DNA of 29,034 nt, from contig JAEOSH010000022.1 of NCBI GenBank assembly GCA_016840465.1, positions 1-29,034 of the forward strand, in the 5' to 3' direction. Position 1 is the stretch's first letter; each line of letters starts with the position of its first letter. Made by a program: the position numbers and the translations under genes. Positions 4,309 to 11,058 of this stretch are shown here, piece by piece. The DNA comes from Candidatus Baldrarchaeum yapensis. GTDB lineage: Archaea; Asgardarchaeota; Baldrarchaeia; Baldrarchaeales; Baldrarchaeaceae. The notes under the pieces are model-generated. The model saw only the letters and a program-made list of their open reading frames with translations. It searched no databases and had not been told where the DNA came from.

Positions 4309-4764
4309 ATGACGTATGAGTACTGCCCATACTGCGGCACCCCCCTACCACCTGGTGCAATGTTTTGTCCCAAGTGCAATGCCTCGCTTATGGAGCCTCC
4401 AGAAGAGTTGGAAAGCATGACCGCTGGCGAAAAGATCTCAATTTCCTCATCCCGCGAAAAAGCAGTCACGGAAACTCCTAGAATCGTAAGAAAGAGGCCG
4501 ATGATTGCGGCAGCCCTCTCAGCTATCGTGCCCGGGCTTGGACATCTGTACGCCGGAAGGAAGAGGAGAGCGGCTTTAATCATGCTTCTGATGGTTCCAT
4601 CTTTCTTCGCAATATTGTTTTTGGTTTTCGCGATGAGCAAGTTCTTCGGAATGCTCCTCTTCCTATCATGGGTACTGGTGTGGGTATGGCAGGTGCGTGA
4701 CTCCTACGATCTGACAGAGCGTATGGCCACGCAGAGGCACATGCGAAGTGCCCCTCGTATGTGA
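4309..4764 (+). CDS. Zinc-ribbon/TM2-like small membrane protein (paralogue 1)
   Basis: 151 residues. The N terminus is a double-CxxC zinc ribbon (Cys6, Cys9, Cys20, Cys23: YCPYCG...FCPKC). A polar linker leads to a glycine-containing hydrophobic hairpin typical of TM2-like domains (ALSAIVPGLGHLYAGRKRRAALIML), then a second hydrophobic segment ending in WVWQVRDSYDLTE. A close relative lies at 10621-11058 with the same cysteine spacing. Proteins of this type are predicted to sit in the membrane with the ribbon in the cytoplasm; their function is unknown. A TATA-like stretch (AAAAAATATAG, about 4267-4277) lies so close to the ATG that the transcript may be nearly leaderless, and no GGTGA is present. 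Confidence 0.7.
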   Translation: MTYEYCPYCGTPLPPGAMFCPKCNASLMEPPEELESMTAGEKISISSSREKAVTETPRIVRKRPMIAAALSAIVPGLGHLYAGRKRRAALIMLLMVPSFFAILFLVFAMSKFFGMLLFLSWVLVWVWQVRDSYDLTERMATQRHMRSAPRM

Positions 4765-4880: not shown

Positions 4881-5003
4881 CCAATACCCTCAAAAGCCGC
4901 TCCATGGCCACCTCATCTTTGCCGCCCTTTTACCACAACCTTGGAATCGAACAGTATAGCAATTGTTAAATTGAGAAAGGGTGGGAATATTCCGGGGATC
5001 GGG

Positions 5004-5288
5004 TTGAGTGTAGGTCCCGAAACTGTGCGCCACATCGCAAAACTTGCCCGCGTGAAGGTCGAAGAGGAAGAGGTTGCGAAGTTCTCCGAACAGTTCTCAA
5101 GAATACTCGAGTTCTTCAACGAACTTGACAAGATAGACGTCTCAAACGTCGAGCCAATGTACCACGTGATCCCCCTCGAAAACGTGTTGCGGGAGGATAA
5201 ACCCTCCCAGCCGCTCGACGTTGAGGATGCGCTCAAAAACGCCCCCGAGAGGAAGGACAAGTACTTCAAAGCCCCGCCAATAATCTGA
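5004..5288 (+). CDS. gatC: Asp/Glu-tRNA amidotransferase subunit C
   Basis: GatC is the small subunit that clamps GatA to GatB in the GatCAB amidotransferase, which converts Asp-tRNAAsn (and in some organisms Glu-tRNAGln) to the amide form. The protein shows the family pattern ETVRHIAKLARVKVEEEEVAKFSEQFSRILEFFNELDKIDVSNVEPMYH followed by LREDKPSQPL and a C-terminal ERKDKYFKAPPII. With the TTG at 5004 it has 94 residues, the usual GatC length, and begins MSVGPETVRHIAKL like its relatives. In-frame TTGs at 4971 and 4941 would add 11 or 21 residues that do not look conserved. The stop overlaps the gatA ATG by one base (TGATG), so the two are probably translationally coupled. Confidence 0.9.
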   Translation: MSVGPETVRHIAKLARVKVEEEEVAKFSEQFSRILEFFNELDKIDVSNVEPMYHVIPLENVLREDKPSQPLDVEDALKNAPERKDKYFKAPPII

Positions 5289-6784
5289 TGCAAGTGGTTG
5301 CAATGAAAATTTATGAGATGACCGCGTTAGAACTGCGGGATGCGATAATCCGTGGGGAGTACAAGGTCGAAGAAGTGGTATCAGCATTCTTAGAGAGGAT
5401 AGAAAAGGACCCGCTCAACTGCTACATAACCGTCGTTAAGGAGCAGGCACTGGAGGAGGCCCGCAAAAAGGACAAGGAGATAAAGGAGTACACCCCGGAT
5501 AAGGTTCCGCCCCTCTTTGGAGTACCGATCGCCGTCAAAGACAACATCTCAACTAAGGGTATAAGGACCACGTGTGCATCCAGAATGCTCGAAAACTACG
5601 TGCCCGTCTTCGATGCGACCGTTGTTGAATTACTTAAACAGGCGGGAGCAATAATCGTCGGTAAAACGAATATGGACGAATTCGCGATGGGAAGCACTAA
5701 CGAAACCAGTTACTTTGGCCCGGTCCTTAACCCCTGGGACAGAAGTAGGGTCCCAGGAGGATCCTCGGGAGGAAGTGCGGCAACTGTCGCCGCGCGCCAA
5801 GTACCCTTGGCACTTGGAACCGACACCGGAGGCTCGATAAGGGCGCCAGCAAGTTACTGTGGAATCGTTGGTCTGAAGCCCACTTACGGGATGGTAAGTC
5901 GATACGGCCTGATAGCCTACGCCGATAGCCTAGAACAAATAGGACCCATGGCAAGGACTGTTGAAGATTTGGCTCTGTTATTTGACGTTATAGAGAGATA
6001 CGATCCCCGAGACTCCACCTCGGTTCCGCCGAAGTTCCGCCCCTCGACTGGGAGGCATCTACAGGAGTTGAGAACCATATTTCCGGAGGAGATAAGTGGG
6101 CTGAGAATGGCGCTGATATCGGAACTCATGAGCGAGGGCATCGAATCGGAGGTCTCGCACAGCATAATGAGAAGCGTTGAGATATTCGAGAAATACGATA
6201 TCATGGTCGACGAGATATCGATCCCCGAGCTGAGGTACGCGCTCCCCGCGTACTACATAATTGCAATGGCGGAGGCAAGTTCAAACCTCGCAAGATACGA
6301 TGGTATAAGGTACGGATTCTCCTCGGGTGCCCCCGGGAAGTTCTACGACGTGATCGCCGAAAACAGAAGGCTGGGATTTGGGGAGGAGGTAAGGAGGAGG
6401 ATCCTTCTGGGAACGTTTGTCCTCTCGGCCGGGTATTACGGACAATATTATCTGAAGGCGCTGAAGGTGCGGAGACTGATAAAAGAGGCCCTCGACAGAG
6501 CGTTCAAATCATTCGATATTCTCATTTCACCAACTATGCCCATTCTCCCTCCGAAACTGGGTGAGCGGATAAAGGATCCCCTCACGCTCTACCTCATGGA
6601 TCTATGTACCGTCCCCGCAAACCTCGCCGGGGTTCCCGCATTGTCCATTCCATGCGCATTCGTTAATGGGTTACCCGTTGGGATGCAACTCATGGCCCCG
6701 CCCTTCCACGAAGACGTTCTCTTCAAGGCCGCCTACATCTTCCAAAAGGAGACCCGCCTCTATGAAATGAGTCCTCCCGTGTAG
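5288..6784 (+). CDS. gatA: Asp/Glu-tRNA amidotransferase subunit A (glutamine amidase)
   Basis: 498 residues. GatA hydrolyses glutamine and passes ammonia through a tunnel to GatB. The amidase-signature catalytic triad is complete: Lys84 (VPIAVKDN), cis-Ser159 (GGSSGGSAA) and the nucleophile Ser183 (GTDTGGSIRAP), with the spacing seen in characterised GatA proteins. The C-terminal part has the expected ISPTMPILPP and GVPALSIPCAF segments. The ATG at 5288 overlaps the gatC stop; an internal ATG at 5306 is a possible alternative start. gatB-aspS begins 10 nt after the stop, with GGTGA in the gap. The tight C-A-B order implies one transcript and stoichiometric assembly. Confidence 0.95.
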   Translation: MQVVAMKIYEMTALELRDAIIRGEYKVEEVVSAFLERIEKDPLNCYITVVKEQALEEARKKDKEIKEYTPDKVPPLFGVPIAVKDNISTKGIRTTCASRMLENYVPVFDATVVELLKQAGAIIVGKTNMDEFAMGSTNETSYFGPVLNPWDRSRVPGGSSGGSAATVAARQVPLALGTDTGGSIRAPASYCGIVGLKPTYGMVSRYGLIAYADSLEQIGPMARTVEDLALLFDVIERYDPRDSTSVPPKFRPSTGRHLQELRTIFPEEISGLRMALISELMSEGIESEVSHSIMRSVEIFEKYDIMVDEISIPELRYALPAYYIIAMAEASSNLARYDGIRYGFSSGAPGKFYDVIAENRRLGFGEEVRRRILLGTFVLSAGYYGQYYLKALKVRRLIKEALDRAFKSFDILISPTMPILPPKLGERIKDPLTLYLMDLCTVPANLAGVPALSIPCAFVNGLPVGMQLMAPPFHEDVLFKAAYIFQKETRLYEMSPPV

Positions 6785-6794
6785 GTGAGGGGGT

Positions 6795-9644
6795 ATGGGT
6801 AAGGAGCAACCCGAAGTGAGGATAGGATTAGAGATTCACTGTCAGATGTCGAACCTGAAGACGAAGCTCTTCTGCAGTTGCCCTTCCGATTACCGGGATA
6901 AGGATCCAAACACAGTGACGTGTCCCGTATGTTTGGGACTCCCCGGTGCGCTCCCCGTAGTCAATAAAGAGGCAATAAAGATGGCGATAAAGACGGCCCT
7001 CGTACTCAACTCCCAAATCTCGAGGAAGACCTACTTCTACAGGAAACACTACTTCTACCCCGACCTCCCCAAGGGCTACCAGATATCCCAATACGACAGG
7101 GCGGGCGCGGTCCCCTTCGCCGTTGGAGGCTACCTTGACATAGAGGTAAACGGGCGCAGGAAGAGGATAAGGATTCGGAGGATACAGATAGAGGAGGACC
7201 CCGCAAAACTCACATATAGTGGTGCGTCCATCGATGTCGCTCAATTCACAATGATAGACTATAACAGGTCCGGAATTCCGCTTCTGGAAATAGTAACGGA
7301 GCCCGACCTCTCCTCCGCGGAGGAAACCGTGGAATTCCTAAAGAAGTTGCGGATGCTTCTGGAACATATCGGTGTATTTCAAGGAGATCTGGAGGGCGTG
7401 ATGAGGGTAGACGTGAACCTCTCGATAGGGTCCGGCGCCAGGGTCGAGATAAAGAACCTATCCTCCCTGAAGGATGTTGAGAGGGCGATTTCATTCGAGA
7501 TTCTGAGGCAGACGAGACTCATGCGTGAAGGGATAGAGGTAAGAAGGGAAACGCTCCACTGGGACGACAAGGCACGTAGAACCTATACTCTGAGAGAGAA
7601 GGAGGAGGAGCAGGACTACAGGTATTTCCCCGATCCCAACCTCCCTCCCCTCATGATAACGGATGAAATGATAGAGGAAGTCAAGAAGGAACTCCCGCAT
7701 CTGCCGGAAATGCTCGTCGAGAAGTATGTCAGCGAACTCGGAATCCCGGAGAATATGGCGAGAGTGATAGTGCAGGACGTAACGCTCTCCAGATTCTTTG
7801 ATGAATGTGTGGAATCCGGTGGAAACCCGGCAGAGGTTGCTCGCTGGCTCCTAAAACTCCCGAAGGAGGACAAGGAAACCCTCCTCTCAAAGTGGGACAC
7901 ATCCGGGTTCGCCAAGGTCGTCGACGTACTAAAGAACTATGAGGTTCCGGACGACATAGGCGTCAACCTGATTCATGATTACCTCTCGGGGAAGATAACG
8001 CTAGAGGATGTGGAGGAGGGAGGAAGGAAGATCGCAGAGTCACGTAAATATCTTAAGGAGAAGATAATCGAAATCCTATCCTCAATAGAAGTTCCAAAGA
8101 AGGTAATTGAGAGGATAGGCGGAGATGAGGAGAAGTTAAGGGGTTTCGTCATAGGGCAGGTGAAAAAGCTTCTTTCCAAAACGTATGGCAGATTCATAGA
8201 CTCCAAACTCGTCGCCGAACTGGTATCGGAGAACTTTGGTGTTGTAAGGGAAAGAGTAAAGCTGGAGAAGAAAGAAGAGGTCACCCCCACCGTCACAGTT
8301 AGGGAAAGGATCGTAGAGGGTCTGGAGGGTCTTCGGAGGACCCACTTCACGGATGAGGTCACTTCTGATCTCGAGGGAGAAGAGGTAGTGGTGTACGGCT
8401 GGGTCCAAAGAATAAGCCGCCTCGGAAAACTCACCTTCCTGGTGCTCAGAGACGGAAGAGGAATAATCCAAGTGAAGATCTCCAGAAAGGAGTGCCCCGA
8501 GGAGGTCGTCAAGAAACTGAAATACATAACGCCGGAGTCGGTGGTAGCGGTCAAGGGCACCGTTAGGGTCGACAAGAGGGCGCCCACCGGAGTCGAAATA
8601 GTTCCCAGCGAGATGAGGGTTCTCGCAATTAGTGAGAAACTCCCATACACCCTAGAGCAGGCCCGTGAGGTCGACCTTTCCACACGGCTCGACTACAGGT
8701 ACATCGACATAAGGAGGGAGAGCGTCAGGGCGATCTTCAGAATAAGGTCCACGGTGCTCCACAGCATCAGTAACTTCTTCCACGAGCACGGCTTCGTCGA
8801 GATCAACACCCCCAAGATAATTGCAACAGCGGCAGAGGGAGGCGCTGAACTATTCTCCCTTCTCTTCTACGGAAGAGAAGCGTACCTCAGCCAAAGTCCT
8901 CAACTTTACAAGCAAATGGCAACTCTCGGGTTTGAGCGCGTCTTCGAGATAGGACCATGCTACAGAGCGGAAAAGTTCCACACGACAAAGCACCTAGTAG
9001 AGTTCTGGGCCCTCGATGTCGAGGTGGCATTCGCAACATACCATGACCTCATGAAGATCCTCGAGGACCTGATGGTGCACGTGTACAGTGATGTTATAGA
9101 GAAGCACCCGAAGGAGTTGGAGATACTGGGTGTGGAGCTGGAGGTCCCGAAGCCCCCGTTCCCCAAGATAACCTACGATGAGGCGCTCAAAATAGCGGCG
9201 AGCAAAGGATATGAGGTAGAGTGGGGCGACGACGTACGTGGTGAGGCCTTCAGGGCGGTGTCAAACGACTTTGCAGAACGTGGACACGAGTTCTTCTTCA
9301 TAATAGACTTCCCAGCGTCCGCAAGAGCATTTTACTACAAGCCACATGAGAAGGATGAACGACTCACTAAGAGTTTTGATCTAGTGAACAGCGTCAAGGG
9401 AGGAATAGAACTCTCAAGTGGAGGGGAGAGAATAAACGACATAGACCTCCTAGTAAAGAGACTTAGGGAGCGGGGTCTCGACCCCGAGAAGTACACGTGG
9501 TACCTTGATATGTTCAAATACGGGGTCCCACCACACGGAGGATTCGGTCTAGGAATAGAAAGACTCCTGCAGGCGATGCTTCGCCTCGACAACATAATGG
9601 AGGCAGTGTTCGTACCGAGAACGCCTCAGAGACTCACACCATAA
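6795..9644 (+). CDS. gatB-aspS: GatB-AspRS fusion: amidotransferase subunit B joined to archaeal-type aspartyl-tRNA synthetase
   Basis: 949 residues in one open frame; ATG 6795 with GGTGA six bases upstream. Residues 1 to about 490 are a full GatB: the zinc site Cys27/Cys29/Cys43/Cys46 (FCSC...CPVC), YPDLPKGYQISQYD, the kinase-like cradle with IEEDPAKLTY, and the helical tail domain ending KTYGRFIDSKLVAELVSENF. A charged linker of about 20 residues follows. Residues 513-949 (437 residues) match a complete archaeal AspRS: OB-fold anticodon domain (LRRTHFTDEV, YGWVQRISRLG), flipping loop region SPQLYKQM, class II motif 2 (YRAEKFHTTKHL, Arg724) and motif 3 (GFGLGIERL, Arg923), ending VFVPRTPQRLTP. 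Gln538 and Pro597 occupy the two positions that set tRNAAsp specificity in characterised archaeal-type AspRS; Pro fits a non-discriminating enzyme. The product could charge tRNAAsn with Asp and amidate it on the same polypeptide together with GatA and GatC. A short, possibly regulatory hairpin follows the stop. Confidence 0.93.
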   Translation: MGKEQPEVRIGLEIHCQMSNLKTKLFCSCPSDYRDKDPNTVTCPVCLGLPGALPVVNKEAIKMAIKTALVLNSQISRKTYFYRKHYFYPDLPKGYQISQYDRAGAVPFAVGGYLDIEVNGRRKRIRIRRIQIEEDPAKLTYSGASIDVAQFTMIDYNRSGIPLLEIVTEPDLSSAEETVEFLKKLRMLLEHIGVFQGDLEGVMRVDVNLSIGSGARVEIKNLSSLKDVERAISFEILRQTRLMREGIEVRRETLHWDDKARRTYTLREKEEEQDYRYFPDPNLPPLMITDEMIEEVKKELPHLPEMLVEKYVSELGIPENMARVIVQDVTLSRFFDECVESGGNPAEVARWLLKLPKEDKETLLSKWDTSGFAKVVDVLKNYEVPDDIGVNLIHDYLSGKITLEDVEEGGRKIAESRKYLKEKIIEILSSIEVPKKVIERIGGDEEKLRGFVIGQVKKLLSKTYGRFIDSKLVAELVSENFGVVRERVKLEKKEEVTPTVTVRERIVEGLEGLRRTHFTDEVTSDLEGEEVVVYGWVQRISRLGKLTFLVLRDGRGIIQVKISRKECPEEVVKKLKYITPESVVAVKGTVRVDKRAPTGVEIVPSEMRVLAISEKLPYTLEQAREVDLSTRLDYRYIDIRRESVRAIFRIRSTVLHSISNFFHEHGFVEINTPKIIATAAEGGAELFSLLFYGREAYLSQSPQLYKQMATLGFERVFEIGPCYRAEKFHTTKHLVEFWALDVEVAFATYHDLMKILEDLMVHVYSDVIEKHPKELEILGVELEVPKPPFPKITYDEALKIAASKGYEVEWGDDVRGEAFRAVSNDFAERGHEFFFIIDFPASARAFYYKPHEKDERLTKSFDLVNSVKGGIELSSGGERINDIDLLVKRLRERGLDPEKYTWYLDMFKYGVPPHGGFGLGIERLLQAMLRLDNIMEAVFVPRTPQRLTP

Positions 9645-10572: not shown

Positions 10573-10620
10573 TCTCAAGAGGAAAAGTTAGACTATGAGT
10601 AGAGTGCACAGGTGAAAAAT

Positions 10621-11058
10621 ATGAGTACCAAGTACTGCCCTTATTGCGGAGCACAGTTACCACCAGGCGCATCTTTTTGCCCAAAGTGTGGCGCCAGTGT
10701 CCAAGTTGCACCTGCAACGCCCACAACCCAGCAACCAGCGACCCCAGTGACGACAACTCCAGTCTCACCGCCCCCCACTCGTCCACCGACTACTGTCGTG
10801 GTTGGGGCTAAGAGTCCGGGGGTTGCTGCAATCCTATCGTTGCTGATCCCAGGCCTCGGGCAGATATACGTCGGAAGAGTGGGAAGGGGCTTATTGATAT
10901 TGTTCATAGTGATGCCACTTACATTCGTGATAGCGTCTCTCACGCTCATATTTGTGTTCCTACCGCTCATCATATGGATCTGGCAAATCTTCGACGCATA
11001 TAATCTTGCGAAAAAGTACAACGACTACCTGTTAAGCATAGGCCAACCTCCTTGGTGA
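10621..11058 (+). CDS. Zinc-ribbon/TM2-like small membrane protein (paralogue 2)
   Basis: 145 residues from ATG 10621, chosen because GGTGA ends five bases before it; an in-frame GTG at 10612 overlaps the ribosome site. Cys6, Cys9, Cys20 and Cys23 form a double-CxxC zinc ribbon with exactly the spacing of the 4309-4764 protein. A Pro/Thr-rich linker (about residues 28-60) is longer and less charged than in that paralogue. The hydrophobic domain has IPGLGQIYVGRVGRGLLILFIV and a second segment ending IWIWQIFDAYNLAKKYN, a TM2-like hairpin. The function of the family is unknown. A hairpin plus T-rich tract downstream would end the transcript. Confidence 0.7.
   Translation: MSTKYCPYCGAQLPPGASFCPKCGASVQVAPATPTTQQPATPVTTTPVSPPPTRPPTTVVVGAKSPGVAAILSLLIPGLGQIYVGRVGRGLLILFIVMPLTFVIASLTLIFVFLPLIIWIWQIFDAYNLAKKYNDYLLSIGQPPW

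Follow-up and report, generated by a model that had tools for sequence, protein, structure and literature searches.

The window, a stretch of 29,034 nucleotides from Candidatus Baldrarchaeum yapensis (contig JAEOSH010000022.1), carries a gat operon on its + strand in the order gatC-gatA-gatB::aspS, the third gene of which is one open reading frame of 949 codons with an ATG start and no internal stop in its translation (Table 1). gatC and gatA share one base, and gatA is separated from gatB::aspS by ten bases. Matches to GatB span residues 5-480 of the encoded protein (NF004012, 495 bits, cut-off 338; TIGR00133, 467.3 bits, cut-off 314.8), and matches to archaeal AspRS span residues 515-949 (NF003483, 526-529 bits, cut-off 353; TIGR00458, 476-479 bits, cut-off 368.4). 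The in-frame GatB/AspRS fusion proposed in the first-pass annotation is thus confirmed by an uninterrupted frame and by both halves scoring above curated cut-offs, and a whole-genome search found the frame, free of stops, at C23:6795-9641 of the host genome. GatA retains its catalytic triad when aligned to A. aeolicus GatA, with the Lys in AVKDN and the two Ser in GGSSGGSAA and TGGSIRAPAS.

Table 1. Features of the gat operon and domains of the fused protein (positions in the window)
Feature	Position	Strand	Evidence or remark
gatC	4941..5288	+	TIGR00135 105 bits, match over residues 27-115; true start may sit downstream of the annotated one
gatA, amidase subunit	5288..6784	+	profile matches and alignment to A. 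aeolicus GatA
gatB::aspS, fused frame, 949 aa	6795..9644	+	ORF and profile matches
GatB catalytic (cradle) domain, residues 1-294	6795..7676	+	PF02934 342 bits
GatB helical and YqeY domain, residues 295-482	7677..8240	+	helical in model, sequence strongly diverged
Linker, charged, residues 483-512	8241..8330	+	without in-frame start codon
AspRS anticodon-binding OB fold, residues 513-620	8331..8654	+	PF01336 57 bits
AspRS class II catalytic domain, residues 621-949	8655..9641	+	PF00152 293 bits

The operon is flanked on either side by a gene for a zinc-ribbon protein with a membrane helix (4309-4764 and 10612-11058; 34% identical to each other), and two M20 peptidases (28% identical) are encoded just beyond these. 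A gene for a TnpB-like RNA-guided nuclease lies at 1330-2904 (NF040570, 117 bits).

Our evidence comes from one draft genome, the sole representative of its family in the genome collection, and the draft state of the assembly (100 contigs), together with the presence of the fusion as a single copy and with no relative found to carry it, could suggest that an assembly or sequencing error merged two genes. Such a merger is nevertheless very improbable, because the join lies near the ends of both domains, in frame and with unbroken codon bias: the codon-usage score is highest in the GatB/AspRS frame at each step across 8000-8690, linker (8240-8360) included. The GC3 values of the GatB part (0.637) and the AspRS part (0.643) agree with the contig, the other measured genes of the window lying at 0.48-0.65. 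Moreover, the frame contains no ATG, GTG or TTG between codon 456, in GatB, and codon 532, in the OB fold of AspRS. From 8200 up to the AspRS domain, the remaining two frames offer starts only at 8236-8242, which run directly into a TAA at 8245, and at 8353, already in the AspRS fold. A free full-length AspRS made from an internal ATG, GTG or TTG was rejected, since no frame offers a suitable start. For the same reason a single-base merging error, such as one indel, would leave aspS without a standard start ahead of its OB fold, which favours a genuine fusion over a separately translated AspRS. Continuous codon bias through a short linker, matching GC3 and the startless aspS make an assembly artefact unlikely, a conclusion that the first-pass annotation had drawn from the domain-complete halves, the open frame and the short charged linker.

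Composition of the two halves

The catalytic domain of the GatB half is ordinary, with a PF02934 score within the range of ten relatives (338-364 bits), 104 of the 117 conserved GatB columns retained, and zinc cysteines (C27, C29, C43 and C46) that align with nearly invariant columns. The C-terminal helical/YqeY domain, in contrast, reaches 27.1 bits with PF02637 (cut-off 27) against 127-168 in the same number of relatives, and keeps 11 of 27 conserved columns. The earlier description of a full GatB therefore holds for the catalytic domain, but not for this strongly diverged C-terminal part. Relative to the N-terminal region, the identity of the C-terminal region is the lowest among 31 archaeal GatBs (ratio 0.43, against 0.651 +/- 0.054 with a minimum of 0.503 in the 30 others); the predicted model, at moderate confidence, retains helices there. 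Yeast GatFAB showed no measurable activity once YqeY had been deleted, either by itself or together with the helical domain, and both domains have been modelled on the tRNA D-loop (PMC4027206), while the GatB tail of bacterial GatCAB reads the tRNA elbow (PMC4810234). The tRNA-holding part of GatB is thus the one that has drifted, and this in the sole GatB joined to a synthetase, a correlation seen in a single lineage. The best reading is that the AspRS module may have assumed some of the tRNA-holding role of the GatB tail, but the drift is also compatible with a simple loss of function.

The claim of a complete AspRS with its class II motifs is borne out. The motifs are present in the alignment, as are R879 and the motif 3 Arg (R923); 59 of the 63 columns conserved across 77 other AspRSs are retained; and the predicted model fits Thermococcus AspRS (1b8a) with a Z of 42.2 at 3.0 A over 434 residues. 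The Foldseek and VIA-align matches listed for the fusion model all fell to this half, and the core of the linker before it (residues 490-501) is predicted to be disordered (pLDDT below 50). The four conserved positions that were lost correspond to Tk R29, R148, Y180 and H370, with S541 standing in place of R29, an Arg within the anticodon-binding fold that is kept in 96% of AspRSs. The idea that the fused synthetase is really AsnRS-like and attaches Asn directly draws on its basal, long-branched position in the trees and on three AsnRS-like residues (Y697, Y900 and T943), but it has hardly any probability. Eight of 11 Asp/Asn-diagnostic columns are AspRS-type, and K706, D741, F907 and P912 each differ in most AsnRSs (Leu in most of them at K706, Glu at D741); likewise, the domain scores 529 bits as AspRS and 345 as AsnRS, the latter below the AsnRS cut-off of 414. 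At Tk positions 26 and 85 the fused AspRS has Gln and Pro, and the separate AspRS of the same genome has His and Pro, a pair which we take to be the signature of a non-discriminating AspRS. Given Q26 and the lost R29 and H370, the tRNA preference of the fused AspRS is uncertain from its sequence.

Host genome, origin and distribution

The host genome (2.27 Mb, 96% complete, 1.7% contaminated) contains two adjacent ESCRT-III (Snf7) genes above the family cut-off, which fits an Asgard archaeon. Its only PF00152 genes are those for LysRS, a separate AspRS (438 residues, C67:98837-100153, intact) and the fused AspRS. Neither AsnRS nor AsnA was found in the host genome, nor was AsnB, since matches to Asn_synthase were confined to two segments, each some 75 residues long, in frames of 290 residues. 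GatD and GatE are encoded side by side, so that Gln would be served by the archaeal route and GatCAB left over for Asn. Archaeal GatCAB is an Asp-tRNAAsn amidotransferase that acts in a stable ND-AspRS:tRNAAsn:GatCAB complex (review, PMC9499178), and the genome encodes GatC, GatA, GatB and AspRS while AsnRS is absent, the gene set expected for an Asn-transamidosome. Amidation of Asp-tRNAAsn is the only route to Asn-tRNAAsn detected in this host. The first-pass annotation had reasoned that a separate intact aspS together with asnS would make the fused domain redundant or inactive; the genome has the first of these but not the second, and with asnS missing the fused pathway is not bypassed despite the separate aspS. 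tRNAAsn was not recovered among 40 tRNA matches in the 96% complete genome, for which introns or an assembly gap are possible reasons. Many tRNA genes of the host (loci L158-L201) appear to contain introns. Two sister-family genomes (G002, L119; G003, L124) encode, in contrast to the window's genome, a synthetase-like protein of 342-357 aa without an OB fold that resembles archaeal asparagine synthetase A.

In the AspRS trees the separate AspRS groups as sister (support 100/99) to homologues from its own order and was vertically inherited, while the fused AspRS is long-branched and placed beyond this well-supported clade. Given that placement and an identity of 46% between the two proteins, the fused AspRS is not a recent duplicate of the separate one; the tree position suggests instead a divergent second copy, either old or acquired. 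The GatB tree gives no resolution around the fused protein, and no GatB was among the matches listed for the three sister-family genomes.

The search for other proteins with both domains, proposed with the first-pass annotation, was run on three slightly overlapping sets that amount to about 500 other archaeal genomes, and no second fusion was among the matches listed, where a full-length match would rank first. This applies to 226 other genomes of the phylum, to 165 other archaea and to 147 genomes of the class of Desulfurococcales archaeon SZUA-1508 (G227), where the long frames of G484, G419 and G490 were left unopened. One pattern scan of genome contigs likewise gave no second fusion, and none was found in plasmids. 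Long open frames in G235 and G298 were rejected as fusions, being adjacent genes with a stop between them. SZUA-1508 has a separate gatB, ending at position 1135, followed by an aspS that begins at 1144 (G227:C34, 2-2457), so linkage of both genes occurs outside the window's lineage too. The AspRS of this pair belongs to a different clade from the fused AspRS in the tree, and the pair is a possible unfused counterpart of the fusion. The SZUA-1508 genome encodes three related synthetases, namely a divergent AspRS-like copy, the gatB-adjacent AspRS and an AsnRS, and divergent AspRS-like copies of 425-433 aa occur in Desulfurococcales/Acidilobaceae (L036:1950-3224 and L037:1126-2424).

Function of the fused protein

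The architecture of the protein, the conservation of its residues and the pathway context of the host were observed directly and make it fairly probable that gatB::aspS encodes a covalent subunit of an Asn-transamidosome; catalysis, tRNA choice and channelling are what we infer from them. Since archaeal AspRS is a dimer, the fusion should assemble with GatC and GatA into a 2:2 particle. In it, tRNAAsn would be bound and charged with Asp by the AspRS module, the CCA end would swing to the GatB/GatA site within the same dimeric particle, and ammonia derived from GatA would amidate the Asp-tRNAAsn before its release, so that Asn-tRNAAsn departs. With the tRNA held by the tethered AspRS, the elbow-gripping C-terminal domain of GatB would be less constrained and free to drift, while the separate AspRS would serve tRNAAsp and possibly tRNAAsn too. 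Forced channelling and fixed stoichiometry, both suggested by the first-pass annotation, are plausible consequences of such a fusion. More tentatively, the fused AspRS may have replaced the tRNA-gripping domain of GatB as the selector of tRNAAsn, with the fused AspRS working for Asn and the separate one for Asp. What counts against the covalent transamidosome is that it is seen in a single draft genome from which tRNAAsn was not recovered, that the separate AspRS has both H26 and P85 and might charge tRNAAsn alone, and that the fused copy has Q26 and is deprived of R29 and H370.

These same residues speak for a distinctly unlikely alternative, in which the AspRS half is a mere tRNA-binding arm for GatB and the separate AspRS makes the Asp-tRNAAsn: both presumed non-discriminating residues are found in the separate enzyme, the fused copy having P85 alone, and the native arm of GatB has drifted. 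An arm of this kind is difficult to reconcile with intact catalytic residues and motifs, with the conserved columns retained and with the close fit of the model to 1b8a. It is also unlikely, to a lesser degree, that the fusion is a neutral event within the operon, in which the stop between two neighbours was lost, both enzymes remained unchanged and the tether is functionless, with no channelling. The unfused gatB-aspS pair of the Desulfurococcales MAG would be a plausible precursor state, the genome has a second AspRS, and a short disordered linker is permissive. However, a neutral fusion does not readily account for a tRNA-anchoring domain of GatB that, relative to the catalytic domain, drifted beyond all 30 unfused GatBs, nor for an AspRS that retains nearly all conserved positions despite the presence of a second AspRS.

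If the reading of gatB::aspS as a transamidosome subunit is true, it is the covalent form of a complex otherwise known only as a loose assembly. Channelling of Asp-tRNAAsn is usually studied in dissociable complexes, and a natural single chain would permit a direct test by cutting the linker. The drifted tail of GatB also suggests an evolutionary prediction, namely that tethering of the synthetase frees the amidotransferase from having to hold the tRNA itself.

Comparison with known systems

The first-pass annotation knew of no characterised enzyme of this architecture, and our survey of the open-licence literature agrees with it, as neither a published GatB-AspRS enzyme nor a description of one was found there. 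The closest systems are the Asn-transamidosomes of T. thermophilus (3KFU) and P. aeruginosa (4WJ3), complexes of ND-AspRS, GatCAB and tRNAAsn whose two enzymes are those joined here and whose two reactions the fusion would share. Those particles are non-covalent and scaffolded by the tRNA, whereas gatB::aspS is a single chain with a diverged GatB tail. An AspRS covalently linked to an amidotransferase subunit is likewise described by the AspRS-GatC fusion model PRK12820 (NF009460), but there the subunit is GatC and not GatB, and the window's protein scores 154.5 bits against a cut-off of 1379 and so falls outside the model. The GatC-GatA protein of Mycobacterium smegmatis, whose paper reports mistranslation in its title, is also a covalent fusion in the GatCAB pathway, but joins two amidotransferase subunits and no synthetase (PMC7541841). 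The PSTK-aSelB protein of Bathyarchaeota places two steps of an indirect aminoacyl-tRNA route in one archaeal open reading frame as well, a fusion suggested by its authors to protect the intermediate, but it belongs to the selenocysteine pathway and combines a kinase with an elongation factor (PMC8762117). The reactions, the partners and other covalent fusions in indirect aminoacyl-tRNA routes are thus already known, and what appears to be new at this locus is the join of GatB to AspRS.
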